Assembly: GCA_902518505.1 (NCBI GenBank)
Contig: CABYGG010000002.1
Location: forward strand, 1-64,000
DNA: 64,000 nt
Direction of reading: 5' to 3'
Origin: an uncultured Alphaproteobacteria bacterium
GTDB taxonomy: Bacteria; Pseudomonadota; Alphaproteobacteria; HIMB59
Below are positions 19,863 to 38,945 of this stretch, piece after piece. Numbering within the stretch: position 1 is the stretch's first letter; each line of letters starts with the position of its first letter. The notes beneath the pieces were generated by a model. It saw only the letters and a list, made by a program, of their open reading frames with translations. It was not told where the DNA came from and did not search any database. Position numbers and translations under genes: made by a program.

Positions 19863-21359
19863 TTAGGAATATTTTTCTTTTAAAGTATTTTTTTGAACTT
19901 TTCCCATGACGTTTTTTGGAAGTTCATCCAACAATATATATTTATTTGGAATTTTATATTTCGCTAAGTGTTTTTTTAAAAAATCTTTAAGATCATTTAA
20001 ATCTGTAGAATTATTCTTCATAACTATTGCTGCAATAGGTACTTCACCTAAATCGTCATTAGGGATACCAAAAACAGCAGACTCTAAAACTAATTCGTGT
20101 TGATTAATAATATCTTCAATTTCTTTAGGATAAACATTATATCCACCACTTATGATTAAATCTTTATTTCTTCCAGATATGAATAGATATCCATCATTAT
20201 CAAAATATCCAATATCACCGGTTATAAAAAAACCATCTTTAGTAAATGCCTCTTGTGTCTTTTTTGGATTATTTAGATAACCTTTAAATACATTAGGACC
20301 ATTTATTTCTATTGTTCCAATATCATTTTCTGATTTATTATTATCACTTTGAATATTATTTATTCTTATTTTAATATCTTTTAAAGGTTTACCAACTGAT
20401 CCTACCTTTCTTTGCCCATCACAAGGATTAGAGGCATTCATATTAGTTTCAGTCATACCATATCTCTCTAATATTTGATGACCGGTTACTCTATAAAAAT
20501 TTTTAAATGTTTGATTTAACAATGGAGCACTTCCAGATATAAATAATCTCATATTTTGTGTTAATTTCTTATCTAGTCTTTTGTCATTCAACAATCTCGT
20601 ATAAAAAGTTGGAACACCCATCATCAGAGTTGAATAATTAAATGCTTCAATAATTGAGTCTATATTAAAATTTTTTATAAATCTAATAGTAGCCCCACTT
20701 ATCATGGAGGTATTAATAGCAACAAACAATCCATGAGTATGATAAATTGGAAGTGAATGGATTAAAGTATCATTGCGATTTATATTCCATAAATTTATTA
20801 GTTCTTGAGCATTTGAAACTAAATTTTGTTCAGTTAACATAGCACCTTTAGGTTTTCCTGTAGTCCCAGAGGTATATAAAAGTGCTGCTAAATCATTATA
20901 TGTTCTTTTTGATGGTTCAAAAAAACTATCAAGGTTTTCTAAACCATCAGTAATCTCTCCAACTCCGTTTGCATTTAAAGATAAAATTCTACAGCCAATT
21001 TCATCGCAAAATGGTTTTAAACTATCTATTTCTGATTTATCACAGATAAGAAAAGATGGTTTTGAGTCCTTTATAAAATAAATTGTTTCATTAACTGTAT
21101 AGCTTGTATTAAGTGGAAAAAAAACTGACCCAGTAAGAATAGATGATAAATAAAGAGCTAAAGTCTCTTTACATTTGGCGGACTTTACAAGAATGTGACT
21201 ACCTGATTTTAACCCTAACTTTGATAATTTGTGAGAAATTTTTGATGCAAGAATTATGAAATTTTTATAAGTAATCTCGGATCCATCATCTAATATTAAA
21301 AAAGTTTTATTATTGTCTAAATTAGTTTCAACAAGATTTGAATAGAGTGAGTCTGTCAA
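19863..21359 (-). CDS. matB: Malonyl-CoA synthetase MatB
   Basis: An AMP-forming acyl-CoA synthetase of 498 aa. The ATP motif LLYTSGTTGKPKG lies near residues 158-170. LPIYHTHGLFVAIN, MMGVPTFYTRLL, RLFISGSAPL and ILERYGMTETNM follow the malonyl-CoA synthetase branch; the C-terminal catalytic Lys is in VMGKVQKN (about K487). It would activate malonate, or methylmalonate, to the CoA ester. The start is a TTG at 21359, because a stop codon lies three codons upstream. No malonyl-CoA decarboxylase is nearby, so malonate may feed fatty-acid synthesis or be decarboxylated elsewhere. Confidence 0.87.
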   Translation of the reverse strand: MTDSLYSNLVETNLDNNKTFLILDDGSEITYKNFIILASKISHKLSKLGLKSGSHILVKSAKCKETLALYLSSILTGSVFFPLNTSYTVNETIYFIKDSKPSFLICDKSEIDSLKPFCDEIGCRILSLNANGVGEITDGLENLDSFFEPSKRTYNDLAALLYTSGTTGKPKGAMLTEQNLVSNAQELINLWNINRNDTLIHSLPIYHTHGLFVAINTSMISGATIRFIKNFNIDSIIEAFNYSTLMMGVPTFYTRLLNDKRLDKKLTQNMRLFISGSAPLLNQTFKNFYRVTGHQILERYGMTETNMNASNPCDGQRKVGSVGKPLKDIKIRINNIQSDNNKSENDIGTIEINGPNVFKGYLNNPKKTQEAFTKDGFFITGDIGYFDNDGYLFISGRNKDLIISGGYNVYPKEIEDIINQHELVLESAVFGIPNDDLGEVPIAAIVMKNNSTDLNDLKDFLKKHLAKYKIPNKYILLDELPKNVMGKVQKNTLKEKYS

Positions 21360-21443: not shown

Positions 21444-22445
21444 TTATGGTAACCATTTCTCCCAAGTAGATTTATTGTTAGCTTTCCATTCAGCAACAAC
21501 ATCATTAAGTTCACCACCTTCACGAACTTTAACGAGCATCGCTGCTTGATCTGCATTTGATAATGCCATTTTACCAAAGAATTCAAGTGCTTTTTGGTTT
21601 TCTGGTTTAGCAAATGTATCAGGATTACCGTAGTTCATTGGATAGTCAACAGCCCAACCTGTTGCTGGCCAAGAGTCAGCTCCACAAGTTTCCCAGTTGT
21701 TTGCCTCGGTAAAGGTATCACAAGTTTTATTTGGAGCTAATTTTACACCTACTAATTCGTTAACACCAAAGAACCAATGAGGCTCCCAAAGATACATTAA
21801 GAAAGGTTCACCTCTATCGTACATACCTTGCGCTTCAGCAAGAGCAGCTGTTTCAGTTCCTAATTCATCAGCAACAAAGTCTAAACCAAGTAGGTCTAAT
21901 CTTTTTTGATCATGACAGTTCCAACCAGCAACTGGACAACCAATTAATCGACCTTTACCACCAGACTCCATAGTCGCAAAATCTTCTTTGAATTTATTTA
22001 AATCAGCATAGCTAGAAAAATCTGGATTTGCATCAGCCCAATATTTTGGAACATAGTAATCTGACATACCGGTAATACCAACAGTTCCAAGTAATTTTAC
22101 ACTTCCATCACCTGAGTAAGTCATTTTAACTTCCCCACCATGAATTAAGTCGCCATTTAACATAACCTCATCAGCTTCAGCGTAACTAGGCCATGACTCA
22201 CATGCAAAATCAATATCACCTGCAGCAATAGCTTCCCACAAGCCAGTTCCTGAGGCAAATACGATTCTATCAATTTCGTATCCTAACTCATCTTCAAGTA
22301 TGCTTACAGCTACTTGACATGAAATCTCTCCACCAGTCCAGTCAGCGATTGCTGCTAATAATTTTTCAGCATTAGCTTTACTGAATGTTGCGGTAAAAAG
22401 AATAGAGGATAGAATAAAAGTTATAATTGTTTTAGATATTCTCAT
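21444..22445 (-). CDS. Quaternary-amine (betaine/carnitine-type) binding protein, OpuAC/ProX family
   Basis: A periplasmic ABC binding protein of 333 aa with a Sec signal peptide ending near SKANA-E (residues 1-26). The mature part has the OpuAC fold pattern: WTGGEISCQVAVSILEDELG, GTGLWEAIAAGDIDFACESWP, VGITGMSDYYVPKYW and MYLWEPHWFFG. Several Trp and Tyr residues could form the aromatic box that holds a trimethylammonium group. A strong Shine-Dalgarno (GGGAGGG) precedes the ATG. Its permease and ATPase are at 27783-31038. Substrate could be carnitine, betaine or another onium compound; the nearby BKACE favours carnitine. Confidence 0.85.
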   Translation of the reverse strand: MRISKTIITFILSSILFTATFSKANAEKLLAAIADWTGGEISCQVAVSILEDELGYEIDRIVFASGTGLWEAIAAGDIDFACESWPSYAEADEVMLNGDLIHGGEVKMTYSGDGSVKLLGTVGITGMSDYYVPKYWADANPDFSSYADLNKFKEDFATMESGGKGRLIGCPVAGWNCHDQKRLDLLGLDFVADELGTETAALAEAQGMYDRGEPFLMYLWEPHWFFGVNELVGVKLAPNKTCDTFTEANNWETCGADSWPATGWAVDYPMNYGNPDTFAKPENQKALEFFGKMALSNADQAAMLVKVREGGELNDVVAEWKANNKSTWEKWLP

Positions 22446-22578
22446 AGATTATCCCTCCCATAAAGTATTTATATTAACAAAAAATAATCAAAGTACATAT
22501 GTTATTTATTCATTAATAGGTAACAAAACTCTATAAAATATGTTTTTTATTAATTAATTAAGTGTAATACTATCAAAA

Positions 22579-23466
22579 ATGATAAAAACTAAAGTATTTC
22601 TTACATGTGCTGTTAATGGATCCGGTGACACTGCATCAAAACATCCTGATCTTCCAAAGACTCCAAAACAAATAGCTAAATCCGCAATAGAGTCTGCTCA
22701 AGCAGGTGCATCTATAGTTCATATTCATGTCAGAGAGGAAGATGGAACGCCTAGTCGAAAATTTGAATTTTATAAGGAAGTAGTTGAAATAATTAGATCT
22801 AGTGACACTGATGTAATTATTAATTTAACAACCGGTATGGGAGGTGATTTAGATATAGGTGAAGGAGATAACCCAATGGATTTTGGTCCATATACAGATA
22901 TGGCTAATATTATGGAAAGAATATCTCATGTAGAGGAATTACTTCCGGAAATTTGTACACTTGATGCTGGAACTTTAAATTTTGGTGATAGTTCTGTGTT
23001 GGCAGTCAATACTCCAAATGATTTAAGAAAAGCAGCAAAACGATTAAAAGAAATTGGGGTTAAACCTGAAGTTGAAGCATTTGATTTAGGTAATATGTGG
23101 TTTGGTGCTCAGCTTTACGAAGAAGGATTACTTAGCGACCCACCCTTATATCAAATGTGTTTAGGAATTCCCTGGGGAGCTCCAGCAAAAACTACAGCTA
23201 TGATTGCAATGTTAGATGTCATGCCTAAAAATGCTATTTGGTCAGGCTTTGCAATTTCAAGAAATGAAATGCCCTTTGTTGCACAAACAGTTTTACTTGG
23301 AGGTAATCCCAGAGTTGGGCTTGAAGATAATTTATATTTATCAAAGGGAAAACTTGCAACTAATCCACAATTAGTTGAAAAGGCAATAAAAATAGTTCAT
23401 GAGTTGGGCTCCTCTATTATGAGTCCCCAAGAGACTAGAGATTATTTAAAGCTAAAAAAAACTTAA
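22579..23466 (+). CDS. Beta-keto acid cleavage enzyme (BKACE), probably 3-dehydrocarnitine-cleaving
   Basis: BKACE proteins are zinc enzymes that condense a beta-keto acid with acetyl-CoA and cleave it to acetoacetate and a new CoA ester. The 295-aa sequence has the metal ligands in IVHIHVREEDG (His 48 and His 50), NLTTGMGGD, HVEELLPEICTLDAGTLNFG, LCLGIPWGAP and VGLEDNLYL with the third acidic ligand. From memory this pattern fits the dehydrocarnitine-cleaving branch (CdhC of Pseudomonas), which yields betainyl-CoA. It is divergent from the binding-protein gene across a 133-base gap and ends 4 bases inside the convergent SDR gene. Confidence 0.87.
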   Translation: MIKTKVFLTCAVNGSGDTASKHPDLPKTPKQIAKSAIESAQAGASIVHIHVREEDGTPSRKFEFYKEVVEIIRSSDTDVIINLTTGMGGDLDIGEGDNPMDFGPYTDMANIMERISHVEELLPEICTLDAGTLNFGDSSVLAVNTPNDLRKAAKRLKEIGVKPEVEAFDLGNMWFGAQLYEEGLLSDPPLYQMCLGIPWGAPAKTTAMIAMLDVMPKNAIWSGFAISRNEMPFVAQTVLLGGNPRVGLEDNLYLSKGKLATNPQLVEKAIKIVHELGSSIMSPQETRDYLKLKKT

Positions 23467-24251
23467 TCCATTCTCTCAGTATTTCCATCAATAGAAATTA
23501 CTTGACCTGAGACTCTAAGGGAGTCTTGAGAAATTAAAAAGGAACACATTTTTGCTATATCATCTTCATAAACCCATTGTTTTAAAGAACTCATAGAAAC
23601 AAAATCTTTTTCAATTGATCTTACAGATTGCTTTAACATTTTTGCTTTCGCTTTTATGACTCTTATCATTCTCGCACCTTTAACAGAACCCGGGCATATT
23701 GCATTTACTCGTATATTAAATTTACCTAATTCCATTGCTAAAGTTTTAGTAATACCAACTAAGGCCCATTTGCTTGCCGCATAAGGTGATCTATTAGGAA
23801 AACCATCAATACCAGCTGTAGAGGAAATATTGATGATTGAGCCATTTTTAGATTTCTTAATCATGGGTATTGCATATTTAGTAAAATAAAAATGACTATT
23901 AATATTTACATGTAAGGTCTTTTCCCAATCATCAGATTTAATTTTCTCTAAAGGAGATGTGGGTCCAGCTATTCCTATATTATTTATAAGTCCATCTATT
24001 TTTTTTGTTTTATTTGATATTTCTTTATAAAATTTTTTCACCTCATCTTCTTTTGAAGCATCGCATTCTGATATAAAAAGTTTTTTATTAAAGTATGAAT
24101 TTTTTTTCAGTTTATTAATTTTTTTTTTATCAATATCACAAGTATAAACAATAGCACCTTGTAATAGTAATAATTTTACAGTAGCTAGACCTATCCCAGA
24201 AGCACCAGCAGATAAAATAATTTTTTTATTTTTAAGGAAATTATTTTGCAT
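23463..24251 (-). CDS. Short-chain dehydrogenase/reductase
   Basis: A classical SDR of about 262 aa. It has the cofactor motif SAGASGIGLATV at residues 16-27, NNIGIAGP, the catalytic Ser in INISSTAG and Tyr/Lys in YAASKWALVG near 155-160, and the closing CPGSV and SGQVISIDGN. The start is the ATG at 24251. It overlaps the end of the GcvT-like gene, suggesting translational coupling. In context it may oxidise the hydroxyl of an imported onium compound (for example carnitine to 3-dehydrocarnitine) before BKACE cleavage; that is inference, as SDR substrates cannot be read from sequence. Confidence 0.88.
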   Translation of the reverse strand: MQNNFLKNKKIILSAGASGIGLATVKLLLLQGAIVYTCDIDKKKINKLKKNSYFNKKLFISECDASKEDEVKKFYKEISNKTKKIDGLINNIGIAGPTSPLEKIKSDDWEKTLHVNINSHFYFTKYAIPMIKKSKNGSIINISSTAGIDGFPNRSPYAASKWALVGITKTLAMELGKFNIRVNAICPGSVKGARMIRVIKAKAKMLKQSVRSIEKDFVSMSSLKQWVYEDDIAKMCSFLISQDSLRVSGQVISIDGNTERMD

Positions 24252-25437
24252 CAAAAGAATTAATATCAGGCTTAATGGGAATAGATCTATCTATACCCTT
24301 TACAATTTTTTTTTCTTTATCATAAAAAGGTAAATCTACAACGACTCCGGTGTGTGAAGAATTATCTGGGAGAATCATTTCTATCTCTTTATTTATATAA
24401 TCATTTGGTTCATAAAATCTTACATAACCAATTCCTTGTTGGAGAGTTGGAGACGGTACGCCTGCTGTTATGTAGCCGACTTGTTTATCATTAATTTTTA
24501 TTTTACTTCCGGCTTTAGGAACTGCTGTTTTACATGTTATTCCAAATAAACAAGTCCTTTTATCTTTTTTAATTAATGCATCTTTACCGATAAAATCTTT
24601 ATCCATATTCACAAAATACCCCAGCCCTGCTTCGAAAGGAGTAATTGTTGTATCTATATCAGTTAAATTTCCAAAAATACCACCCTCAATTCTTCTAATA
24701 GTCATGGCTCTAGAAGCAGAAAATTGCATACCATATGGTTTACCACATTCTATAAGATGGTCCCATAGAGCCAAATGGTCTGTGTTAAAACCATCACAAA
24801 AAATTTCAAATCCTAATTCATTTGTAAAACCTGTTCTTGAAACATATAAAGTTTGCCCTCCTAGATCAAAAAAATTGGATGTAAAATAAGGCATATTTTC
24901 ATCAATCTTTCCATTAGAAGCTAACTTCATAATATCGATTGATGCCGGACCTTGAATTTGAAGAACTCTAGATTTAGGGTCTTTTATTTGAATATCATAA
25001 TTTGAACTGTGAGCAATAAGCCAATCTTCAAATGGGCCATCCGCTTGAACGTACCAAAACTTTTCTTCATCAAACCTAAATAAAACTCCATCCATGAAAA
25101 TTCCACCTTTTGGTGTACAGGCAAGTGCATAATAACCTCTGCTAATTTTTGTTTTTGAAATTTCTCTTGTCAGCACTTTATTCAAAAAAGAAACTGAGTC
25201 TTTTCCTGATATTTCTATCGGTTTTTCTGGAACATCAAATAAAAGAGCTTTTTGTCTTAAAAGCCAATATTTTTCTAAAGGATCTTCATCAATTTTCATA
25301 GGAAAGTATCTTCCTGCATAGACGCCTCTAACCATATTCGAAGTATTAGTACGTTGAATGAATGGAGACTCTTCAAATCTACGTGCACTAATTTGAATTG
25401 TTTTATTTAGATCAGCTTCTTCTTGTAAATTTCCCAT
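24241..25437 (-). CDS. GcvT-family (DmdA-like) folate-dependent demethylase
   Basis: A 398-aa member of the aminomethyltransferase fold that moves methyl or methylene groups to tetrahydrofolate. Family features are the N-terminal ISARRFEESPFIQRT, SFLNKVLTREI, the RVLQIQGPASIDIM core, RRIEGGIFGN, FEAGLGYFVNMDKDFIGK and ITCKTAVPKAGSKI. The N-terminal RRxxxxPF pattern recalls DMSP demethylase DmdA, but I would not name it so; betaine, dimethylglycine or another methylated onium compound is equally possible. Its ATG follows the stop of the molybdoenzyme gene with no intervening base. Confidence 0.82.
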   Translation of the reverse strand: MGNLQEEADLNKTIQISARRFEESPFIQRTNTSNMVRGVYAGRYFPMKIDEDPLEKYWLLRQKALLFDVPEKPIEISGKDSVSFLNKVLTREISKTKISRGYYALACTPKGGIFMDGVLFRFDEEKFWYVQADGPFEDWLIAHSSNYDIQIKDPKSRVLQIQGPASIDIMKLASNGKIDENMPYFTSNFFDLGGQTLYVSRTGFTNELGFEIFCDGFNTDHLALWDHLIECGKPYGMQFSASRAMTIRRIEGGIFGNLTDIDTTITPFEAGLGYFVNMDKDFIGKDALIKKDKRTCLFGITCKTAVPKAGSKIKINDKQVGYITAGVPSPTLQQGIGYVRFYEPNDYINKEIEMILPDNSSHTGVVVDLPFYDKEKKIVKGIDRSIPIKPDINSFDAK

Positions 25438-27783
25438 TTATTTATCAATGACTCTATTAGATTTATAGTCACGAATAATAACAGGAGGGTCAAATGCGGT
25501 CACAGGTGAAATTTTATCTTTAACTAATTCTACTTCGATGAGACATGAATGTGCTATAGGACCTTGACCTAATTTCGAAGTTCCTTTGTCTTTTGTAAGG
25601 ACATTAGGATTACCATGTTTACAGATAGTTTTTAAATTTTTAGTATCCTCAGGATCATACCATGCACCTGTACTAATTTGAACAACTCCAGGGCGTATAT
25701 TATCATTAATGTTTACACCAGCTAAACAGGCACCTCTGTCATTGAAAAGTTTTACTATATCTCCCTCATTTATACCTCGACTACTAGCGTCAATACTATT
25801 CATTTCAATTGGTTCACGATCTTTAATTTTAAAAGATTTACTATAACTTCCGTGATCCATTTGACTATGTAATTTATTTTTTGGTTGATTAGATATTAAA
25901 TGTAAAGGATAATTTTTATTTTTACTTCCAAGCCATTCACAGGGTTCTAACCAGATTGGATGACCAGGACAATCATCATAATTAAAACTATCTACTGTTT
26001 TAGAATATATTTCTATTTTTCCACTTGGAGTAGAGAGCGGGAATTTAGTAGGATCTTCTCTGAAATCTTTTAACATTATTGTATTTTCTTTTGGCGGTGG
26101 AACTTTAAACCACCCTATTTTTCTAAACTCCTGATAGCTAGGAAAATCAATATTTTTTAATGACTTTGATTTGACTGATGTTTCTTGATAAATCCATTTT
26201 TGCCAATCTTCTTCATCTCTTCCTTCAGTAAAAAGATTTTCGACATCCATTTTTTTTGCAATTCCTTTAAAAATATCAAAATCACTTTTAGCCTCTTTAA
26301 AAGGTTCAACTAATTTTGACATTGAAATTACATAAGGATCTCTTGGGGTAAGCATTATATCTTGTCTTTCAAGTGGAGTGGTACAAGGTAAGATAATATC
26401 TGAATATTTAGCTAAAGAATTCCAGCACCATTCATTAGAAATGATAGTTTCAGGTTTTTGCCAAGCTAGCAAAAGTTTATTAATATCTTGATGATGATGA
26501 AATGGATTTCCACCTGCCCAATAAATTAATTTAATATCAGGATATTCATACTCCTTGCCATCAAAATGAAAAGTTTCACCCGGATTTAAAAGTAAATCAC
26601 TAATCCTTGCAACTGGGATAAAATTATCAATTTTATTGTCAGATTGTGGAAAAGCAGCGCCAGGAATAATAGAAAACTGCCCACCAATGTGATTTGTTGC
26701 ACTATAACCAAATCCAAAACCACCACCTGGTAAACCTATTTGACCCAACATTGATGCCAACATAATTGCTGCCCAAAAAGGCTGTTCACCATGATCTTGG
26801 CGAGTTAAAGACCAACTAACAGATATCATAGTTCGCTTTGAGGACATGTCTCTTGCCAAAGAAATAATTTCATCTGATGAGATTTCACTTATTTCTGAAG
26901 CCCAATTAGCATCTTTTACAACTCCATCTAAATCTCCTAAAAGATATGGTAAGAAAATATCAAAACCTTCTGTGTATTTTTTAATAAATATTTCACTAAA
27001 TAAATTTTCTTTGTATAGAGTGTGCGCTAGACCGAGCATAATTGCTACATCAGTATTAGGTCTTAAAGGTAACCACTTTCCTTTAACCTCATCTAACAAG
27101 TCACTTTTCAATGGACTCAAATTTACAAATCTTATGCCAGCTTTAGCAGAACTAATTAGTTTTTCTTTTTGATTATGACTCCCTGTTCCACCTTGCGCTA
27201 TTTGACCATTTTTTAAAGGGACTCCCCCAAAACATACAAATAGTTCTGTGTTTTCTTCGATTGAGTCCCAACTAGTGCAAGTATCAAGATAGGCTCTATA
27301 ACTTCCAAGTATATGGGGAACCATAGCTTCTGCCGCTGCAAAACTATAAGTAAACTTTGATTTTGTGTAGCCACCAATGCAATTTAAAAAACGATGTAGT
27401 TGGCTTTGAGCGTGGTGAAATCTTCCAGCACTAGCCCAGCCGTAAGATCCACCAAATATTGAGGAATTACCAAAGTTCTCTCTTACTCTATTTAATTCTT
27501 TGGCTACTATATTTTCAGCATCATCCCAAGATACAGCCACAAAAGGATCTATCCCTCTTAAGTTATTATTTGTTCCTGGTCCATTATCAATCCAACTTTT
27601 TCTTATCATAGGCTTATCAATACGCGTTTGATTATCGTGAATGTCTACAATACCTGGGCCTATTGGTGATGGATCTTTATCATTTTCCCATCCTATTAAT
27701 TCTGTGACTTTCCCATTATTTACTTTTGCTCTATAAGTTCCCCAATGCGAACTAGTTAAGGGAAGATCTTTCTTAAAACCCAT
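25438..27783 (-). CDS. Cytoplasmic molybdopterin oxidoreductase, BisC/TorZ type
   Basis: A 781-aa DMSO-reductase-family enzyme. SYGWASAGRFHHAQSQL near residues 110-126 carries the presumed Mo-ligand Ser; WSLTRQDHGEQPFWA, GGNPFHHHQDINKL and HLISNQPKNKLHSQMDHGSY are cofactor-binding segments typical of BisC and TorA/TorZ. There is no N-terminal [4Fe-4S] Cys cluster motif and no twin-Arg signal, so it should act in the cytoplasm without an iron-sulfur centre. Known relatives reduce S-oxides or N-oxides (biotin or methionine sulfoxide, TMAO). Its ATG overlaps the permease stop (TAATG), tying it to onium uptake. The true substrate is unknown. Confidence 0.87.
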   Translation of the reverse strand: MGFKKDLPLTSSHWGTYRAKVNNGKVTELIGWENDKDPSPIGPGIVDIHDNQTRIDKPMIRKSWIDNGPGTNNNLRGIDPFVAVSWDDAENIVAKELNRVRENFGNSSIFGGSYGWASAGRFHHAQSQLHRFLNCIGGYTKSKFTYSFAAAEAMVPHILGSYRAYLDTCTSWDSIEENTELFVCFGGVPLKNGQIAQGGTGSHNQKEKLISSAKAGIRFVNLSPLKSDLLDEVKGKWLPLRPNTDVAIMLGLAHTLYKENLFSEIFIKKYTEGFDIFLPYLLGDLDGVVKDANWASEISEISSDEIISLARDMSSKRTMISVSWSLTRQDHGEQPFWAAIMLASMLGQIGLPGGGFGFGYSATNHIGGQFSIIPGAAFPQSDNKIDNFIPVARISDLLLNPGETFHFDGKEYEYPDIKLIYWAGGNPFHHHQDINKLLLAWQKPETIISNEWCWNSLAKYSDIILPCTTPLERQDIMLTPRDPYVISMSKLVEPFKEAKSDFDIFKGIAKKMDVENLFTEGRDEEDWQKWIYQETSVKSKSLKNIDFPSYQEFRKIGWFKVPPPKENTIMLKDFREDPTKFPLSTPSGKIEIYSKTVDSFNYDDCPGHPIWLEPCEWLGSKNKNYPLHLISNQPKNKLHSQMDHGSYSKSFKIKDREPIEMNSIDASSRGINEGDIVKLFNDRGACLAGVNINDNIRPGVVQISTGAWYDPEDTKNLKTICKHGNPNVLTKDKGTSKLGQGPIAHSCLIEVELVKDKISPVTAFDPPVIIRDYKSNRVIDK

Positions 27784-29906
27784 TAGGATTTATCTAATCC
27801 AAGGGCTTGTCTTTGTTTCTTAGTCCAGGCGTGGGTTATCCTATCGATGATAATAGCTAGAAGAACGATAGCTAAACCAGCTGATAAACCTCTTCCTGTA
27901 TCTGATCTTTGAAGTGCATTAAATACTTGGAGTCCTAGACCTTTTCCTCCAATCAAAGGCGTAACAATTTGCATTGCAAAAGCCATTATTACAGTTTGAT
28001 TAAAACCCATAACGAGACTGGGAACAGCTAGTGGAAATTTTACTTTATTTAAAGTTTGAATTCCTGTCCCTCCAAAAGATTTAGATACCTCTGAATAGCT
28101 CCCTGAAACTTGTGACAAACCAAGAGCTGTTAATCTTATTATTGGTGGCACAGAATATATAACTGTTGCAATAACAGCAGATACTATATTTCCTCCAAAA
28201 AACATTAAAACAGGAATTAAATAGCAAAAATAAGGTAAAGTTTGCATTGCATCTAAAACAACATTTTGGATATCTCTGTACCATTTATTGTAGGATGCTA
28301 TTACTCCAAGTGGTACTCCTATTACAAAACATATTAAAACTGAAACTAGTACTGACGATAGCGTAATCATTGAATGCACCCACATACCTGTAGCTCCAAT
28401 GAAGGCTAATAATATTGCGGTAATGGTGGCAAACTTTATTCCAACTGTCACATATCCTATAAGTATAAAAACAATCATTGTATACCACCAAGGTATCTGA
28501 GTAAGAAATAAATTTAATGGGTTTAGCAAATATAAGTAAACAAAATACTTCATGCCTTTTGCAAATGATATAAAACCAGGATCAAGAGTCATTGCCTTGA
28601 CAGTATCTTCTATTGGTTTTTGAATATCAATTGTCCAAGTTTCTGGAAAAGTTCCTATACTATAAATGTATGCATCAAAAATATAAATAAAGATAAAAAT
28701 TAAAAATGATGAAAATAAAAAATATCGTTGATTTATAAAATTTTTAACTGAACCTTTTTGAGACTTATTAAAAAAAGAAATAAAGCTAGCTATTAAACTA
28801 GCAAAAACATTAACAATAGTTGTAAAAAATATATTTATAAGCTTTACAGATATTCTCAAAGGTAATTCAATTAAGTTTGCTACAGGGTTTCTGTGTAGAT
28901 TTTGCGGCAATAAGTAAAATTTTTTTACATCATCTGGTAAGGTTTCTTTTTCTTTACTAATAGCACTACTTATTCTATCAAACATTATTGCCATAAATAA
29001 AATACACAAGCCCCCTTCCATTGCCCAACCAACATCTAATTTTCTAATTGCTTGCCATACTTGACCACCTAAACCTTCAGCACCAATAAAAGTTGCAAGA
29101 ACAACTAGAGCTAATGCCATCATAATTGTTTGATTTACACCCATCATGATACTTGGTAAGGCCATTGGAATTTTAATTTTAAATAAAAGCTGAAATTTAT
29201 TAGATCCAAAAGATTCAGCTGACTCTATTGTTTCTTTAGATACTTGTCTAATTCCTAAATTTGTTAATCTAATAATTGGAGGCATAGCATAAATTAATGT
29301 AGCAAGTATTGCTGGAGCGCCACCAATTCCAAAAAAGAACATTGCAGGGAATAAATATACAAATGCAGGCATGACTTGCATGGTGTCTAAAATAGGTTTT
29401 AGAAAATTTTCAAATCTATCACTTTGAGAACTGAGTATTCCTAAGATAACTCCAAAAATTACAGATAAAATTACTGATAAGCCCATTAATGCTAATGTTT
29501 GCATTGAGACCTCCCACATGTCCACAGCGCCCCAGAAATAAACTGTAAACATACAAAATAGAGCTAGTTTAATACCACCATATGCTAAAGCTGGAAGAGC
29601 CATTAAGGACATTATTAAAATCCATGGAGACTCAACAAAGAAATTTTCCAATGCCATGTAACCAGCTTGTAAAAAAGAGGCAAATAATCTCGTTATCCAT
29701 CTATAGTTATCTTTTAAATAATCCTCACCAGCATTTATCCATGCGGTAAATTTAAATTCATCAGTAATTGATTTAGGAAATACAGTAGGATCCTCATTAA
29801 TAATCGACAGATAATATGCTACTGCACCAATGATAAAAATACTTATGTAAAAAATTATATTTTTATTTAATTTATTTTTAGTAGCTATATTTTGATCTAA
29901 AGACAT
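27783..29906 (-). CDS. Onium-compound ABC permease, two ProW-type domains fused
   Basis: A 707-aa inner-membrane protein with two homologous ProW-like permease domains (about 130-330 and 490-700) joined by extra membrane helices. Each has an EAA-type loop: ETIESAESFGSNKFQLLF and YSEVSKSFGGTGIQTLNK, each followed by a VPS/LPSIMMG-like helix start. One chain thus supplies the whole channel, as in some marine betaine, proline or carnitine importers. It is the first gene of a coupled operon running into the molybdoenzyme, the GcvT-like demethylase and the SDR. A 97-base divergent gap separates it from the ATPase gene. Confidence 0.88.
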   Translation of the reverse strand: MSLDQNIATKNKLNKNIIFYISIFIIGAVAYYLSIINEDPTVFPKSITDEFKFTAWINAGEDYLKDNYRWITRLFASFLQAGYMALENFFVESPWILIMSLMALPALAYGGIKLALFCMFTVYFWGAVDMWEVSMQTLALMGLSVILSVIFGVILGILSSQSDRFENFLKPILDTMQVMPAFVYLFPAMFFFGIGGAPAILATLIYAMPPIIRLTNLGIRQVSKETIESAESFGSNKFQLLFKIKIPMALPSIMMGVNQTIMMALALVVLATFIGAEGLGGQVWQAIRKLDVGWAMEGGLCILFMAIMFDRISSAISKEKETLPDDVKKFYLLPQNLHRNPVANLIELPLRISVKLINIFFTTIVNVFASLIASFISFFNKSQKGSVKNFINQRYFLFSSFLIFIFIYIFDAYIYSIGTFPETWTIDIQKPIEDTVKAMTLDPGFISFAKGMKYFVYLYLLNPLNLFLTQIPWWYTMIVFILIGYVTVGIKFATITAILLAFIGATGMWVHSMITLSSVLVSVLICFVIGVPLGVIASYNKWYRDIQNVVLDAMQTLPYFCYLIPVLMFFGGNIVSAVIATVIYSVPPIIRLTALGLSQVSGSYSEVSKSFGGTGIQTLNKVKFPLAVPSLVMGFNQTVIMAFAMQIVTPLIGGKGLGLQVFNALQRSDTGRGLSAGLAIVLLAIIIDRITHAWTKKQRQALGLDKS

Positions 29907-29978
29907 ATTTAATTATATTTATTCAATTATATAAGAATTTATAAAAATAATTTTATTTTAATAGTATTAATTCACAAT

Positions 29979-29984
29979 TATAAT
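29979..29984 (+). promoter_or_regulatory. Candidate -10 box for the onium ABC ATPase gene
   Basis: A perfect TATAAT lies 19 bases before the ATG at 30004, in the 97-base divergent gap between permease and ATPase. The expected start site would leave a leader of only about a dozen bases. The upstream -35 (TTTTAA-like) is poor, so this is a motif-based guess. Confidence 0.3.
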
Positions 29985-30003
29985 AGCTTTATACCTGAAT
30001 AAT

Positions 30004-31038
30004 ATGGATAAAATTATTTGTTCAAATATATGGAAAATTTTTGGAAATGATGAAAAAAGAATTTTAGACAATTTAGATCCAAATTTAACAAGAGACGAAG
30101 TCCAAGAAAAAACTGGACATGTAGTAGCTGTAAAAGATGTCAGCTTTTCTATTCAAAAAGGTGAAACATTTGTTGTAATGGGATTATCAGGAAGTGGAAA
30201 ATCAACTTTAGTAAGATGTTTAACTAGATTAATTGAACCTACATCTGGATCAGTAATTATTGATGATATTGACATTACAAAAATAAGTAGAAATAGCCTT
30301 CTTGAACTTAGAAGAAATAAAATGAGTATGGTATTTCAACACTTTGGACTTTTTCCACATCGTACAGTTCTTGAAAATATCTCTTATGGTTTAGAAATTA
30401 GGGGAGAAAAAAAACAAGAAAGATTAGACAAGGCTACAGAGTCTTTAAATCTTGTTGGTTTAAAAGGTTGGCATAATAATTATCCAAGAGAGCTATCAGG
30501 TGGAATGCAACAAAGAGTTGGTTTAGCACGTGCAATGGCAGTTGAGCCAGAAATCTTAATATTTGATGAGCCATTTTCTGCTTTAGACCCATTGATTAGA
30601 AGAGAAATGCAAGACGAACTCTTAGACATTCAAAAAAAATTACAGCGAACTATGGTTTTTATTACTCATGATTTTTTAGAGGCAATAAAAATGGGAGATC
30701 ATATTGCTATTATGAAAGATGGTGAGATTTCTCAAGTTGGAACACCTGAAGAAATTGTGGCAAATCCGGTTGATAAATACGTTAAAGATTTTTGTGAAGA
30801 TGTTCCTAAATATAAAGTATTAAGCGCAGGAAAAGTTATGCGTAAACAATGTTCTGATGAGTCAAAAAAATTATTTTCTGATAAAACAAAATGCATAGAT
30901 GAAAATGCTAAAATTGAAACATTAATTGACCAGATATGTGAAGATGATACGGCCTACCCTATAATAAATTCGCAATCTGGAGAGTTAGTTGGAGAAATTG
31001 ATCGAACCATTGTTATGAAGTCTATGAAATCTAAATGA
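30004..31038 (+). CDS. Onium-compound ABC ATPase, ProV/OpuAA type
   Basis: A 344-aa ATPase of the glycine-betaine/carnitine importer family. Walker A GLSGSGKST is at about residues 60-68, signature ELSGGMQQRVGLARA near 160, DEPFSALDPLIRREMQ and the switch His in FITHDFLEA. The long N-terminal extension before the P-loop (NIWKIFGNDEKRILDNL) is typical of ProV. A C-terminal CBS-like tail of about 65 residues is present, shorter than a full CBS pair; in OpuA such domains sense ionic strength. It pairs with the permease transcribed divergently and the binding protein at 21.4-22.4 kb. Confidence 0.92.
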   Translation: MDKIICSNIWKIFGNDEKRILDNLDPNLTRDEVQEKTGHVVAVKDVSFSIQKGETFVVMGLSGSGKSTLVRCLTRLIEPTSGSVIIDDIDITKISRNSLLELRRNKMSMVFQHFGLFPHRTVLENISYGLEIRGEKKQERLDKATESLNLVGLKGWHNNYPRELSGGMQQRVGLARAMAVEPEILIFDEPFSALDPLIRREMQDELLDIQKKLQRTMVFITHDFLEAIKMGDHIAIMKDGEISQVGTPEEIVANPVDKYVKDFCEDVPKYKVLSAGKVMRKQCSDESKKLFSDKTKCIDENAKIETLIDQICEDDTAYPIINSQSGELVGEIDRTIVMKSMKSK

Positions 31039-31047
31039 ACTTATCAT

Positions 31048-31959
31048 TTAGTTTGGTTTATTAATTTTCTTATTTTTATCTCTCCAAATAATAATCATTC
31101 CTGCAAAAACTATTAATAAAACTCCAGGAAAAAGTTGATCAAAAGGTGCTTCACCAAAAAATATCCATGCTAGAATAAAAGATGAGGGTATTGCTAAATA
31201 TTCAAAAACTGCGATTTTACTAGCTGCTATTAACCTATAAGAGTAAATAAATAGAATTGCAGCTGTTCCTCCAAAAATACCAATTAATGATAAAATTAAA
31301 AAATCAGTATTACTCTCAATATATGTATGACCAGTTGTAAAAAAAATAAATATTAATGAACCAAGAAAAGATGAAAAGAGAGAATAGAATTGAATTTTTC
31401 CTGTAGAAAAATTATCTGGTATAAATTTTAGTACTATCACTTGGACAGCCCATAAGAAAGCAACTAGTATTGGTAAAATAGAATAATAAGAAAAAATACT
31501 ACTATTAGGTTTCATAATCATTACAACTCCAACAAAGCCAATTATAACAGCTGACCATCTATATATACCCACTCTGTCTCCTAAAAAGAAGATTGATAAA
31601 ATTACTATAAAAAATGTAGAGGAAAAAGTTAGTGTAGATGCTGTAGCAAATTCCATATTATTTATTGCAATGTAATACAAGATATTAATAGCCAAAAAAC
31701 AAGAACCTCTGATAAAACAAAATAAAATAAATTTTTTATTTAAATTTTTAAAAAGGTCTGAGCTTTCTTTATTATAAATTAGTAATAGTATTAGGGGGAT
31801 TATCGCAAAAGTATTTCTAAAAAGAGCTAGTTGAATTGTAGAATACTCACCTCCTAAATATTTTACAATCAATCCATGTATATCTATGAATATAACTCCA
31901 ATAACCATTGCAGAGATTGCAAGAAATGTATTTTTTTGATTATAAATAAAATTAATCAT
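31048..31959 (-). CDS. EamA/DMT-family transporter
   Basis: A 303-aa drug/metabolite-transporter protein with about ten hydrophobic helices arranged as two EamA repeats (first about 15-145, second 160-295). Segments such as LFRNTFAIIPLILLL, FLGDRVGIYRWSAVIIGF and FFGEAPFDQLFPGVLLI are typical. Such proteins often export or exchange small metabolites; substrate unknown. It converges on the ATPase gene with a 9-base gap and is divergent from the alcohol dehydrogenase gene, with only 41 bases for both promoters. Confidence 0.85.
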   Translation of the reverse strand: MINFIYNQKNTFLAISAMVIGVIFIDIHGLIVKYLGGEYSTIQLALFRNTFAIIPLILLLIYNKESSDLFKNLNKKFILFCFIRGSCFLAINILYYIAINNMEFATASTLTFSSTFFIVILSIFFLGDRVGIYRWSAVIIGFVGVVMIMKPNSSIFSYYSILPILVAFLWAVQVIVLKFIPDNFSTGKIQFYSLFSSFLGSLIFIFFTTGHTYIESNTDFLILSLIGIFGGTAAILFIYSYRLIAASKIAVFEYLAIPSSFILAWIFFGEAPFDQLFPGVLLIVFAGMIIIWRDKNKKINKPN

Positions 31960-32000: not shown

Positions 32001-33191
32001 ATGAAAAACTTTAAACTAAACGAAAAAGATATCCTCTCTAACCAAGACTGGACTTTTCCGACAACCACATATTACGGACCAGGAAGATTTAATGAAATTG
32101 CAAAATTTTGTGAGGAATTTGATATTAAAAATCCTCTTATTGTAACAGATAGTGGCAGCAAGGATCTTCCTTTTATTAAGAAATTAATAGCATTATTATC
32201 AAAAAATAATATTAAATCAGATTTATTTTATAATATATCGCCTAACCCACGAGATGATGAGATATCAAAAGGATGTGTCCAGTTTAAAAATGGAAGTCAC
32301 GACTCAATCATAGCTATTGGTGGTGGGAGTGCTATGGATGGTGGTAAGTCTATATGTTTAACTGTTAATAGTGAAACCCCATTATGGGATTTTGAGTTTG
32401 AACAACCAGTACCAAAAATAACAAAAGAAAATGCATTTCCAAAAATAATAACTGTCCCAACAACTGCAGGAACCGGGGCTGAAACAGAAATAACAGCAAT
32501 GGTCACACATTTAGAAAAAGGAATGAAATTTTGCATCTGGCATCCAGATGTAAGACCTATATTCACACTAGTAGATCCAGAGTTAACATTAGAATTACCT
32601 CCAAAATTAACAGCGTGGACAGGTGTCGATGCTCTTGTACATAGTATCGAGGGATACTGTGTGCCAGGTTTTCATCCACTTTGTGATGGAGCTGCTTTGG
32701 AAAGTCTTAATTTAATTTCAAAATCTCTTGTTTTAGCTGTAGAAGAACCAAATAATTTGTTAGCAAGAGGTGCAATGATCATAGGATCATATTTGGGAGG
32801 AATATCCTTTTTAAAGGGATTAGGTAATGTTCATTCAATATCCCACATGGTTGGAGCAGAATTTAATACTCATCATGGTTTAACGAATGCTATTGTTTTA
32901 CCACCTGTTCTTCATTTCAATTTACCAGGTATGGATGAAAAAGTTCAAAGAATGTCAGAAGCTATGCAATTTGAAAATCATACAGTAAATGAATTTACAC
33001 AAAATATTGAATTGTTACTTGATAGATTAAATATCCCTAAAAGTTTAAAAGAAATTGATGTTCCTGAAGACTGTGCTGAAAGGATTGCAAAAAAAGCTAT
33101 GCAGGATCAAGCCTATGCAACAAATCCAAAAGAAGCATCATTGTTGCAAATGAAAGACATTGTTACTCAAAGTATAAAACAAGCTCGCTAA
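32001..33191 (+). CDS. Iron-containing alcohol dehydrogenase
   Basis: A 396-aa group III NAD(P)-dependent alcohol dehydrogenase. NAD binding is shown by AIGGGSAMDGGKSI and VPTTAGTGAE; metal ligands are in WTGVDALVHSIEGYC and GNVHSISHMVGAEFNTHHG (Asp, His, His, His). The family oxidises primary or hydroxy-acid substrates or reduces aldehydes. It heads a tightly spaced operon with amidase, EamA transporter, homocysteine methyltransferase and an enolase-superfamily enzyme (gaps of -4 to +6 bases), so it probably processes a catabolic intermediate of that operon. Confidence 0.88.
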   Translation: MKNFKLNEKDILSNQDWTFPTTTYYGPGRFNEIAKFCEEFDIKNPLIVTDSGSKDLPFIKKLIALLSKNNIKSDLFYNISPNPRDDEISKGCVQFKNGSHDSIIAIGGGSAMDGGKSICLTVNSETPLWDFEFEQPVPKITKENAFPKIITVPTTAGTGAETEITAMVTHLEKGMKFCIWHPDVRPIFTLVDPELTLELPPKLTAWTGVDALVHSIEGYCVPGFHPLCDGAALESLNLISKSLVLAVEEPNNLLARGAMIIGSYLGGISFLKGLGNVHSISHMVGAEFNTHHGLTNAIVLPPVLHFNLPGMDEKVQRMSEAMQFENHTVNEFTQNIELLLDRLNIPKSLKEIDVPEDCAERIAKKAMQDQAYATNPKEASLLQMKDIVTQSIKQAR

Positions 33192-33197
33192 GCCTAT

Positions 33198-34613
33198 ATG
33201 CTTGAGGATCAATCTGTTGAAGAAATAATACACAATATAAATCAGCGACAAATATCTATTAAAGAGGTAATGGAATACTATTTGGATAGAATTGAAAAAT
33301 TTAATCCAGATTTAAATGCAATAGTACTTCTCAAGGATAGAGGGGATCTTATTAAAGAAGCTATATATAAAGATAATTCAACTCAATCTGAGAAGACTTT
33401 AGATGGAATCCCCATAGCTATTAAAGATTTAAGTGATGTAGTTGGCATTAAAACAACATATGGCTATCCTGGAACAAAAGATTATTTTCCCAAAAAAAAT
33501 TCATTGTTTGTTGAACGTCTTATTAAAAGCGGAGCTATTATAATTGGAAAGACTAACACAGCAGAATTAGGTGTTGGTGGACATACAATAAACAGATTGT
33601 TTGGCCCAACTTCTAATTATTATGATAATAAAAAATCTGCAGCAGGATCAAGTGGAGGAGCCAGTACTGCTGTAGCAGCAGGACTAATACCATTTGCAGA
33701 CGGCACTGATCAAATGGGATCATGCAGAGGACCAGCGGCATATGCAAATATTTATGGATACAGACCTACACCTGGCTTAATTTCAGTTGATAGAGGGAAC
33801 CAACTATCAAAAATTCCCATACTCACAACACCTGGTTGTTTAGCAAAATCACCAAGTGATATGGCATTTTTATTAGATGAAATGATTGGAAGTGATACAA
33901 GGGATAACTATTCTTTTGATTTAAAAGAACTTTTTAAAAATCAAAAAATAAAAGATGAAGATTTAACCAATATCAAAATAGGTTGGTTATCTAATATGAA
34001 TAATAATTATAAAATTGAAACAAAAATTTTAGATATGTGTGAGTCTCAACTTAAAAAATTAGAAAACTTTTATGTAAAAATTGAAAGATTAAAACCAGAT
34101 TTTGATAATGAAGCTCTATGGAATAGTTGGATAACGTTTAGATCAAAAAGTATTTACGAAGATACTTTAGCAATGAACATAAAAGATATTAATACAATGA
34201 CTTACCAAGCTATATGGGAGTACAATCACGGAAAAAATATAAAAAATGAAGACTTAGATAGTGCTTATAAACAAAAAAAAAGGTGTGAAGAACAAATTGA
34301 AAATATATTTAAAAACTTTGATTTTCTAGCTTTACCCTCTGCACAACTATTTCCGTTTGATAAAAATCAACAGTTTCCTGAAAAAATAAATTCTTTTCAG
34401 TTAGATACTTACCACCGTTGGTTAGAAATTTTTATATTGTCTAGTCTTCTTGAATTACCGACATTCACTATCCCTGTCGGATTTGATGAATTTGGTATGC
34501 CAATGGGTATGCAGATAATTGGAAAAAGAAAAAGTGATTTACAATTATTTGCTTTTGCAAAAAAATATGAGGAAATATTTAACTTTAGTAAGTTTAAACC
34601 TCTGTTAGATTAA
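33198..34613 (+). CDS. Amidase, amidase-signature family
   Basis: A 471-aa amidase-signature hydrolase with the Ser-cisSer-Lys triad: Lys in IAIKDLSDVVG, cis-Ser in AAGSSGGAST and the nucleophile Ser in GTDQMGSCRGPA. The usual DxGGS reads DQMGS, so the first oxyanion-hole Gly is replaced by Met; activity could still be retained. The substrate is unknown. GatA and other amidases share the fold, but no gatB or gatC is adjacent. It follows the alcohol dehydrogenase by six bases, consistent with hydrolysis of an amide in the same pathway. Confidence 0.86.
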   Translation: MLEDQSVEEIIHNINQRQISIKEVMEYYLDRIEKFNPDLNAIVLLKDRGDLIKEAIYKDNSTQSEKTLDGIPIAIKDLSDVVGIKTTYGYPGTKDYFPKKNSLFVERLIKSGAIIIGKTNTAELGVGGHTINRLFGPTSNYYDNKKSAAGSSGGASTAVAAGLIPFADGTDQMGSCRGPAAYANIYGYRPTPGLISVDRGNQLSKIPILTTPGCLAKSPSDMAFLLDEMIGSDTRDNYSFDLKELFKNQKIKDEDLTNIKIGWLSNMNNNYKIETKILDMCESQLKKLENFYVKIERLKPDFDNEALWNSWITFRSKSIYEDTLAMNIKDINTMTYQAIWEYNHGKNIKNEDLDSAYKQKKRCEEQIENIFKNFDFLALPSAQLFPFDKNQQFPEKINSFQLDTYHRWLEIFILSSLLELPTFTIPVGFDEFGMPMGMQIIGKRKSDLQLFAFAKKYEEIFNFSKFKPLLD

Positions 34614-36495: not shown

Positions 36496-36498
36496 ATA

Positions 36499-37623: not shown

Positions 37624-37626
37624 AAA

Positions 37627-38564: not shown

Positions 38565-38945
38565 CTATTTATTAAGGTAAGTATAACCACAAATTTTGTT
38601 GCCATCTAAATCTCTGATATAAGAATAATACTCACCTTCATATCTCTCACCTGGGGCGCCTTCATCTTTTGCACCTAAGCTTATTGCAGTAGAATGAAAT
38701 AAATCGACAGCTTCTTTATTATTTATATAAAAAGAAATTTGAGTTCCGTTACCAACTGATGCTTTTTCTTCATTGAAAGGAATTGTAACATAAAATTCTA
38801 CTGCTTCAGGATTTGATTTAGGGGCGTAGGAGGCATAAGTATCAGTTTTTTCAATTTTCTTTAAATCGATAATTTCAAGAAGGGTGTCATAAAACCCAGT
38901 AGCTTTATCAAGATCGTTTGTTCCAACCATGACAAATCCTATCAT
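38565..38945 (-). CDS. VOC-family (glyoxalase-like) protein
   Basis: A 126-aa vicinal-oxygen-chelate fold protein with the two beta-alpha-beta-beta-beta modules: FVMVGTNDLDKATGFYDTLL and ISFYINNKEAVDLFHSTA, ending SYIRDLDGNKICGYTY. It may be a small metal-dependent lyase, isomerase or detoxifying enzyme; the substrate is unknown. Its ATG lies directly at the aldehyde dehydrogenase stop (one-base spacing), so the two are co-translated. It likely acts on the aldehyde pathway product. Confidence 0.8.
   Translation of the reverse strand: MIGFVMVGTNDLDKATGFYDTLLEIIDLKKIEKTDTYASYAPKSNPEAVEFYVTIPFNEEKASVGNGTQISFYINNKEAVDLFHSTAISLGAKDEGAPGERYEGEYYSYIRDLDGNKICGYTYLNK

Follow-up and report, generated by a model that had tools for sequence, protein, structure and literature searches.

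An onium-type importer linked to a predicted molybdenum S/N-oxide reductase and a GcvT-like protein in HIMB59-type Alphaproteobacteria: a candidate route of import, deoxygenation and demethylation

The stretch of DNA described here (64,000 nucleotides, referred to below as the window) comes from an uncultured alphaproteobacterium of the HIMB59 lineage, whose genome is assembled in 31 contigs totalling 1.21 Mb with an estimated completeness of 79.5%. Between positions 21444 and 31038 the window carries seven genes of predicted transport and catabolic function, four of which abut on the reverse strand. These encode a double-length permease (27783..29906) in which Pfam finds BPD_transp_1 domains in two stretches; a bis-molybdopterin guanine dinucleotide (bis-MGD) S/N-oxide reductase of the BisC/DorA/TorZ type (25438..27783; PF00384, PF01568 and PF18364), called the molybdoenzyme or reductase below; a GcvT-fold protein, presumably a folate-dependent methyltransferase (24241..25437; PF01571 and PF08669), called the GcvT-like protein; and a short-chain dehydrogenase/reductase (SDR) oxidoreductase (23463..24251; PF13561/PF00106). 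The permease and molybdoenzyme frames have one base in common (TAATG at 27783), the molybdoenzyme stop (25440-25438) is followed without a gap by the GcvT-like ATG at 25437 (TAAATG), and the SDR frame, with its ATG at 24251, overlaps the last 11 bp of the GcvT-like frame (end at 24241). An OpuAC-family onium-binding protein having a four-tryptophan box (21444..22445, reverse strand; PF04069) and, on the forward strand, a beta-keto acid cleavage enzyme (BKACE; 22579..23466; PF05853, 299.5 bits against a gathering threshold of 24.8) and a ProV-type ATP-binding cassette (ABC) ATPase (30004..31038; TIGR01186, 370.6 bits, cut-off 326.6) flank these genes. BKACE is convergent with the SDR and the ATPase divergent from the permease, so that the genes must be read from three or more transcription units. 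The 97-bp intergenic stretch between permease and ATPase (29907..30003) is the presumed site of both divergent promoters. The coordinates thus bear out the junctions and the flanking genes that the initial annotation had reported. Only four genes abut on one strand, however; BKACE and the ATPase lie on the other strand, and linked genes run past 31038, among them an iron-containing alcohol dehydrogenase (32001..33191) that it had left out.

Conservation separates these genes into a core and accessory members. The core is the onium ABC importer (binding protein, ATPase and permease), the molybdoenzyme and the GcvT-like protein, often joined by the iron alcohol dehydrogenase; SDR and BKACE are accessory. 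In a panel of 100 relatives (52 of the same genus and 48 others) the molybdoenzyme was present at an identity of at least 77% in 33 of the 52 same-genus genomes, and one of the 48 others has a 50% relative. An ortholog of the GcvT-like protein (identity at least 76%) was found in all 33 molybdoenzyme-bearing same-genus genomes and in none of the remaining 19. The search for permease orthologs covered 33 same-genus genomes, 21 with and 12 without the molybdoenzyme. An ortholog (identity at least 87%) was found in 21, the genomes lacking it being the 12 that also lack the molybdoenzyme, and in 21 of 21 it abuts the molybdoenzyme gene. The initial annotation had named permease orthologs located away from the molybdoenzyme in most relatives as one observation that would count against it; none of the 21 is so placed. 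As some genomes lacking the set (among them G017, G024, G030 and G038) are more than 90% complete, the gene set is an accessory trait. Genes of molybdenum cofactor synthesis were uninformative as a co-occurrence marker, moaA being present in 87 of the 100 relatives (79 over the cut-off) with or without the reductase.

The wider locus survey took the 80 best of 295 confirmed molybdoenzyme loci: 32 HIMB59-type, 22 SAR11-type and 26 others, including roseobacter-type loci. Many HIMB59-type loci are near-identical to one another, and therefore the independent support lies in recurrence in three kinds of lineage. The GcvT-like gene directly follows the molybdoenzyme gene in 75 of the 80 loci (32/32 HIMB59-type, 22/22 SAR11-type and 21/26 others, L122 being counted although its GcvT-like gene is present as fragments only). 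It is missing from that position at L104, L111, L112, L113 and L129. The L129 genome has a GcvT-like ortholog on another contig and that of L111 a 35% relative; in three of these five genomes, which are mostly draft or metagenome-assembled, there was no GcvT-like match at E 1e-40. The short contigs L102, L115 and L117 carry the labels Gammaproteobacteria, Halieaceae and Flavobacteriales, which may be binning errors.

The junction of permease and molybdoenzyme genes varies in form. The gap is -1 (TAATG) in 31 of the 32 HIMB59-type loci (L073 was not resolved). Among the 22 SAR11-type loci it is +1 in 12, 0 in seven and -4 in two, L086 giving an odd value, and among the 13 other loci with a permease match it is -4 in eight and 11 to 95 bp in five. 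The retention of tight spacing under changing geometry argues for selection; a junction that reappears from lineage to lineage in differing forms is not due to chance. The permease lies directly upstream in 13 of the 19 other pair-bearing loci (those having the molybdoenzyme and GcvT-like genes together) with at least 1 kb of upstream sequence. The binding-protein gene follows the core in 22/22 SAR11-type loci. Many roseobacter-type loci have the order binding protein, ATPase, permease, molybdoenzyme, GcvT-like protein, iron alcohol dehydrogenase, and a divergent version is found in SAR11-type and HIMB59-type loci. The alcohol dehydrogenase is present in all 17 SAR11-type loci whose contigs reach that far (those of L084, L085, L086, L087 and L093 end before its position) and directly follows the GcvT-like gene in 11 of the 18 other pair-bearing loci whose sequence extends 0.5 kb or more past that gene. 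Hence, the tie between importer, S/N-oxide reductase and folate-type GcvT-like protein that the initial annotation had noticed in a single sequence is borne out by co-occurrence and synteny across lineages. Co-occurrence of all seven genes, the check that it had proposed, bears out importer, reductase and GcvT-like protein, whereas BKACE and SDR are seldom present outside the HIMB59-type loci.

Of 385 genomes sampled across the class, 78 encode a relative of the molybdoenzyme (E 1e-200 or better); GcvT-like matches of more than 51% identity are confined to three HIMB59-type genomes, where the reductase is at least 86% identical. In a separate sample of 247 SAR11-family genomes the molybdoenzyme was found in five, two of which were already in the locus survey; the gene set is therefore rare in that family.

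The molybdoenzyme aligned end to end with Rhodobacter dimethyl sulfoxide (DMSO) reductase (694 bits) and retains Tyr114, Trp116 and Ser147 (Rhodobacter numbering), the last being the serine ligand to molybdenum. Its start lies just ahead of the conserved LTSSHWG motif without a signal or N-terminal extension, so that the enzyme is presumably cytoplasmic, and a Pfam scan gave no match to an Fe4S4 domain. The best NCBIfam model was bisC_fam (TIGR00509), the score of 940.2 bits being below the cut-off of 1017.55. According to the available text of PMC5122715, S-oxide reduction is impossible for enzymes lacking the active-site tyrosine, and combined S/N-oxide reductases carry both the tyrosine and the tryptophan. 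The tyrosine is deleted in E. coli TorA; the window enzyme has it and so falls outside the N-oxide-only TorA group. By residue class the window enzyme is predicted to be a combined S/N-oxide reductase. Respiration of trimethylamine N-oxide (TMAO) was ruled out by the lack of an export signal, the absence of any cytochrome gene seen adjacent to the molybdoenzyme gene and an active site unlike that of TorA. A quick tree covering 49 molybdoenzymes placed the pair-bearing enzymes in one clade of 34 rows with an SH-like approximate likelihood ratio support of 99, in which 29 of the 34 have the pair, and this clade is separate from E. coli BisC and TorZ.

Given its BisC-like family, the reductase could instead serve in the salvage of methionine sulfoxide or biotin sulfoxide, its gene position then having no bearing on metabolic coupling. 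Related enzymes are solitary in other genomes, and four genomes keep a reductase of the clade with no GcvT-like ortholog found, showing that the reductase can persist alone. Salvage does not account for the exact co-occurrence with the GcvT-like protein, nor for abutting frames whose overlaps change across several lineages, nor for a plasmid catabolic cluster of Phaeobacter and Tritonibacter (below) in which a 59% identical reductase is paired with a different GcvT-like protein. We consider the salvage reading quite unlikely.

The GcvT-like protein fell below the cut-offs of the Tdm, DmdA and GcvT models: 188.6 bits for the TMAO demethylase Tdm (NF053776, cut-off 1100, the match being to the C-terminal part only), 154 bits for the DmdA equivalog model (NF009133, cut-off 410), and 161.5 and 125.2 bits for two GcvT models (NF001567, cut-off 300; TIGR00528, cut-off 235.85). 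In a tree of 28 rows it groups with a 47% identical protein from the TMAO island of its own genome, with paralogues from other loci and with the plasmid GcvT-like proteins. A branch with support of 99/98 places this set together with the DmdA of the genome and one aminomethyltransferase, apart from Tdm, GcvT, SoxA and the domains of dimethylglycine dehydrogenase (DMGDH) type. The best model of that aminomethyltransferase is also DmdA (269.4 bits, below the cut-off). Approximately unbiased tests rejected trees in which the GcvT-like protein was forced together with Tdm (p 0.009) and also those with DmdA alone as its sister (p 0.017). A motif, [FW]W...[ASP]D, is common to the GcvT-like protein and the DmdA side and is missing in the Tdm, GcvT, SoxA and DMGDH-type rows. 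An N-terminal motif of the GcvT-like protein, R..SP[FY], was not used as a DmdA marker because DMGDH-type proteins also have it. The predicted structure (mean predicted local distance difference test score, pLDDT, 75.5) matched many GcvT-fold structures alike (Z 33-39; DmdA 3tfh, Z 35.3), and thus structure alone does not choose a relative. As the tree has long branches, these data are moderate evidence that the protein belongs to the DmdA side of the family and not to the Tdm side.

The importer was compared with characterized onium transporters. The model of the binding protein (mean pLDDT 80.1) had as nearest solved structures, in a tie, TmoX with TMAO (Z 27.1, root-mean-square deviation 3.2, 283 residues) and DmpX with dimethylsulfoniopropionate (DMSP; Z 26.7, root-mean-square deviation 3.1, 277 residues). 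The available text of PMC8918994 reports that four tryptophans box TMAO in TmoX and that Glu131 hydrogen-bonds the N-oxide oxygen. The box (W36, W85, W175 and W220) is present in all 12 HIMB59-type and SAR11-type binding proteins compared; the Glu131 position is Ser128 in the window protein, and each of its 11 relatives of that type has serine as well. Glutamate is found there in all five binding proteins compared from roseobacter-type loci. Given the tryptophan box and the replacement of Glu131, the window protein is probably an onium-type binder and not a TMAO binder. It scored 57.2 bits with the ProX model (NF008334), below the cut-off of 215. With the choline importer models the permease scored 425.6 bits, its two domains summed (TIGR03416, cut-off 363), and the ATPase 375.9 (TIGR03415, cut-off 483.75). 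In layout the permease matches a TmoW-like protein of 690 residues encoded in a TMAO island that the genome also has.

That island lies on another contig (G000:C3:62000-81900, L140) and comprises Tmm (738 bits, cut-off 675), Tdm (1161.8 bits, cut-off 1100), the stand-alone GcvT-like protein 47% identical to that of the window, and an OpuAC-type importer. The genome also encodes a DmdA (483.9 bits, cut-off 410) located apart from the window's island. As the genome has both a separate TMAO island and a separate DmdA, the substrate of the window's island is likely another compound. With a full TMAO island elsewhere in the genome, TMAO catabolism is an unlikely main role for it.

Taken together, these protein families lead us to propose that the core forms a pathway that would import, deoxygenate and demethylate a methylated onium compound, with dimethylsulfoxonium propionate (DMSOP) as leading candidate substrate, a reading on which our judgement is evenly balanced. 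The binding protein, ATPase and double-length permease would import the compound, as their families and the tryptophan box suggest. The reductase would then take oxygen off the sulfur or nitrogen of the substrate in the cytoplasm, as expected of its active-site class. Consistent with its tree position, the GcvT-like protein would transfer one methyl group of the onium centre to tetrahydrofolate in the fashion of DmdA with DMSP. More speculatively, the alcohol dehydrogenase, an aldehyde dehydrogenase, an enolase-superfamily protein and homocysteine methyltransferases encoded nearby could process the carbon remainder or the methyl groups. Translational coupling would hold permease, reductase and methyltransferase in step. 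DMSOP leads the candidates as an onium S-oxide known from the sea; it is zwitterionic, and its reduction would yield DMSP, a possible substrate for a DmdA-like demethylase. Another oxidised sulfonium or an N-oxide would fit, and a literature search on homarine as substrate gave no gene link. A narrower version, which we hold only tentatively and think unlikely, gives the two enzymes one dedicated task, the reductive demethylation of an oxidised sulfonium, DMSOP being the likeliest: the sulfoxonium would become a sulfonium at molybdenum and a methyl group would pass to folate. Bolder still, the pair may be redox-neutral: oxygen would be taken up at the molybdenum centre, which would then oxidise a methyl C-H bond, and the GcvT-like protein would trap the product on folate. 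Such a reaction would explain why the core contains no recognisable electron donor.

The same two-step logic could act on a tertiary-amine N-oxide other than TMAO, such as a hydroxylated or carboxylated methylamine N-oxide, in which case the reductase would form the amine and the GcvT-like protein would accept a methyl group or a formaldehyde-level unit. Enzymes having both tyrosine and tryptophan also reduce N-oxides, as stated in the available text of PMC5122715, the closest GcvT-like relative in the genome adjoins the TMAO demethylase, and the alcohol and aldehyde dehydrogenases are in keeping with an amino alcohol. This substrate class sits poorly with the likely DmdA-side position of the GcvT-like protein, with the rejection of Tdm as its partner, and with serine in place of the N-oxide-contacting glutamate in 12/12 HIMB59-type and SAR11-type binding proteins, and we rate it as possible, though unlikely.

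Further linked genes could bear on the carbon remainder of an imported onium compound. Neighbour families (F numbers) were counted across 34 compared loci. Beyond the ATPase the window has an EamA transporter (31048..31959, reverse; PF00892; F7, 12/34 loci), the iron alcohol dehydrogenase (forward; PF00465/PF25137), whose best solved relative is the NAD methanol dehydrogenase 8zrl (218.5 bits), an amidase-signature hydrolase (33198..34613, forward; PF01425; F8, 12/34) and a second EamA transporter (34619..35512, forward; PF00892; F9, 11/34). The first EamA transporter and the amidase are linked in HIMB59-type and SAR11-type loci. An enolase-superfamily protein of the mandelate racemase/muconate lactonizing enzyme type (36499..37623, forward; PF13378/PF02746; F21, in the window, L080, L119 and L125) is flanked within 35509-38547 by two homocysteine S-methyltransferase family genes (35509..36495, forward; PF02574; F17, 5/34; and 37627..38547, reverse; PF02574; F18, 4/34), possibly a second methyl-transfer route for the island's substrate. 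A VOC/glyoxalase-like protein (38565..38945, reverse; PF00903; F15, 6/34, including L088, L118, L121, L124 and L125) and the aldehyde dehydrogenase (38946..40376, reverse; PF00171; F10, 9/34, SAR11-type and roseobacter-type loci included) follow. Families common to the window and roseobacter-type loci are the enolase-superfamily (two such loci), VOC and aldehyde dehydrogenase proteins. At L118, L121, L124 and L125 a second GcvT-like gene adjoins a VOC protein near the core, and the TMAO island of relative G030 (L144) has a Rieske oxygenase and a VOC protein 44% identical to that of the window. Another enolase-superfamily gene lies next upstream of the molybdoenzyme at L123:8682-9818 and L128:6518-7702, in the place taken by the permease elsewhere; its product belongs to a different family from that of the window (Pfam assignment for L128). 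Near the roseobacter-type core are a choline-dehydrogenase-like GMC oxidase (L118:2099-3877, L125:886-2538) and a BetI-type TetR regulator (L125:4809-5492), which may indicate a ligand with an alcohol group. Downstream of the binding protein is a malonyl-CoA synthase-type ligase (19863..21359, reverse; NF005702, 642.9 bits, cut-off 558), which is a neighbour in 30/32 HIMB59-type, 0/22 SAR11-type and 0/26 other loci.

The recurrence of enolase-superfamily and dehydrogenase genes near the core would also suit a methylated arsenical as substrate, be it arsenobetaine, arsenocholine or an arsenosugar. The reductase would then act on an arsine oxide and the GcvT-like protein on arsenic-bound methyl groups, leaving the organic part to the sugar-acid-type enolase and the dehydrogenases. 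Among the structural neighbours of the binding protein is an OpuAC structure solved with arsenobetaine (5nxy, Z 20.8). We consider an arsenical highly improbable: no arsenic gene was noticed among the annotated neighbours (no search aimed at one was made), organic arsenicals occur only rarely in dissolved form, and we know of no precedent for folate-dependent arsenic demethylation.

The two accessory genes are most likely co-located guests that form a carnitine module. In the fetched stretches, scored at E 1e-15 and an identity of at least 45%, BKACE was found in only 3/22 and SDR in 6/22 SAR11-type loci and neither in the 26 other loci, and for this reason they are not core. The BKACE gene is the only copy found in the assembled genome. 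A carnitine-dehydrogenase-type gene adjoins BKACE in L080 (same genus), L096 and L103. The L080 protein scored 343 bits with the L-carnitine dehydrogenase model (cut-off 414), and the genome that the window comes from encodes a 52% relative about 45 kb from BKACE. The gene for this relative lies head to tail with a gamma-butyrobetaine-hydroxylase-type gene just outside the window (G000:C2:66730-68846, L165), and this pair could feed the window's BKACE. The single copy, the carnitine-type genes 45 kb away and the pairing in relatives make a carnitine role for BKACE the more likely one; on this reading BKACE would cleave dehydrocarnitine, and the SDR would belong with it.

The initial annotation had instead all seven genes degrading one onium compound, which can be worded as a carnitine-like beta-hydroxy onium acid oxidised by the SDR and cleaved as the beta-keto acid by BKACE, the GcvT-like protein demethylating the betaine and the reductase handling oxidised forms. 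All seven genes are indeed together in 28/32 HIMB59-type loci, the other four (L051, L067, L072 and L073) being cut by contig ends, and in L080, L096 and L103 the neighbourhood of the core holds the carnitine-dehydrogenase-type gene along with BKACE and SDR. A single pathway is weakened by the scarcity of BKACE and SDR in loci outside the HIMB59 type that keep the reductase and GcvT-like protein, and by the location of the genome's carnitine-type genes in another place. We therefore regard the seven-gene pathway as improbable and retain the import, deoxygenation and demethylation reading for the core.

Plasmids of Phaeobacter inhibens and Tritonibacter scottomollicae encode a molybdoenzyme about 59% identical to that of the window and, 11 kb away, a different GcvT-like protein (36%), together with a TRAP transporter, CoA ligase, crotonase, SDR and aldehyde dehydrogenase (L161:11218-25797 and L162:9292-23865). 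The cluster is common to the two genera, several protein accessions being identical. That a second GcvT-like subfamily accompanies a molybdoenzyme relative suggests that oxide reductases and folate demethylases are partnered more generally. Assignment of the cluster to a DMSP-type pathway was rejected. The CoA ligase best fits fatty-acyl- and feruloyl-CoA synthetase structures and the crotonase the enoyl-CoA hydratase 3njb, and searches with the two proteins gave no DmdB or DmdD entry within the E-value limits used. Hence, the plasmid cluster neither proves nor identifies a sulfur route.

Several observations weigh against our proposed pathway or its sulfur substrate. The core encodes nothing recognisable as an electron donor for the reductase, as is also the case for BisC. 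The alcohol dehydrogenase, enolase-superfamily protein and amidase are not explained by DMSOP. The long branches of the GcvT-family tree and the Tdm gene next to the closest relative in the genome, which points to nitrogen, bear on the demethylation step, and the reductase without a GcvT-like ortholog in four genomes of its clade bears on the pairing. No permease match was found upstream in 6 of the 19 other pair-bearing loci (L106, L110, L123, L127, L128 and L130), and none of ten fetched stretches around molybdoenzyme relatives of 50-59% identity in other Alphaproteobacteria has a GcvT-family gene. The roseobacter-type loci have a different binding protein, about 30% identical, that retains the TMAO-type glutamate, and thus substrates could differ between lineages. 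Finally, DMSOP is scarce in open seawater (0.14 nM, in the available text of PMC10686828).

The gene combination looks undescribed, its parts all being of known families and its layout paralleling the TMAO island. We found no published description of a set of importer, S/N-oxide reductase and folate demethylase, nor the phrase 'DMSOP reductase', in the literature searched, which excluded most subscription journals. Term searches of the available text of the HIMB59/AEGEAN-169 and CHAB-I-5 genome papers gave no mention of the cluster. Large-scale production and turnover of oxidised methylated osmolytes take place in the sea. Whether DmdA demethylates DMSOP is named as a future priority in the paper on DMSOP-cleaving enzymes, the available text of which does not use the word 'reductase' (PMC10686828), and in a study on other sulfonium osmolytes the inability of DmdA to accept dimethylsulfonioacetate (DMSA) led to the suggestion of an additional demethylation pathway (PMC7221440, available text). 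The gene set is also present in the public genome of the roseobacter Marivita cryptomonadis CL-SK44 (L119), which makes both questions directly testable. If our proposal is correct, folate in aerobic plankton would receive methyl groups by way of oxide deoxygenation, and the pair of reductase and GcvT-like genes would be a metagenome marker for demethylation fed in this way. Should the substrate be DMSOP, its sulfur and methyl carbon would go to the demethylation branch rather than being lost as DMSO, and a folate demethylase would be fed by an oxide reductase.

The island can be compared with four known systems. The TMAO island tmoXVW-tdm(-tmm), found in SAR11, roseobacters and HIMB59-type bacteria, likewise has an OpuAC-type binding protein, a ProV-type ATPase and a double-length permease; a GcvT fold forms part of its demethylase, and in this genome the stand-alone relative of the window's GcvT-like protein (47%) adjoins Tdm. 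The window's island differs in having a molybdenum S/N-oxide reductase where Tdm would be and a binding protein in which serine replaces the oxide-contacting glutamate of TmoX. It resembles DMSP demethylation in the likely DmdA-side position of its GcvT-like protein and in a binding protein as near to DmpX as to TmoX, whereas its GcvT-like protein falls far short of the DmdA cut-off and the true DmdA is encoded elsewhere. We know of no oxide reductase in the DMSP pathway (DmdA with a DmpXWV-type importer). Other SAR11 aminomethyltransferases lie near betaine transporters, and the available text of Sun et al. 2011 (PMC3160333) names no oxide reductase with them. DMGDH, sarcosine dehydrogenase/oxidase and Tdm likewise pair a catalytic unit with a GcvT-fold unit that takes one-carbon groups to folate, but these are fusions, whereas the island encodes two separate proteins and its catalytic unit is a molybdenum oxide reductase rather than a flavin or Tdm-type unit. 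The reductase itself shares with BisC, DorA and TorZ the molybdenum-ligating serine, the active-site tyrosine and tryptophan and the lack of an Fe-S domain match, and with BisC the lack of an export signal. Unlike those enzymes, it forms a clade of its own and lies in an operon-like set with an onium importer and a folate-type demethylase.

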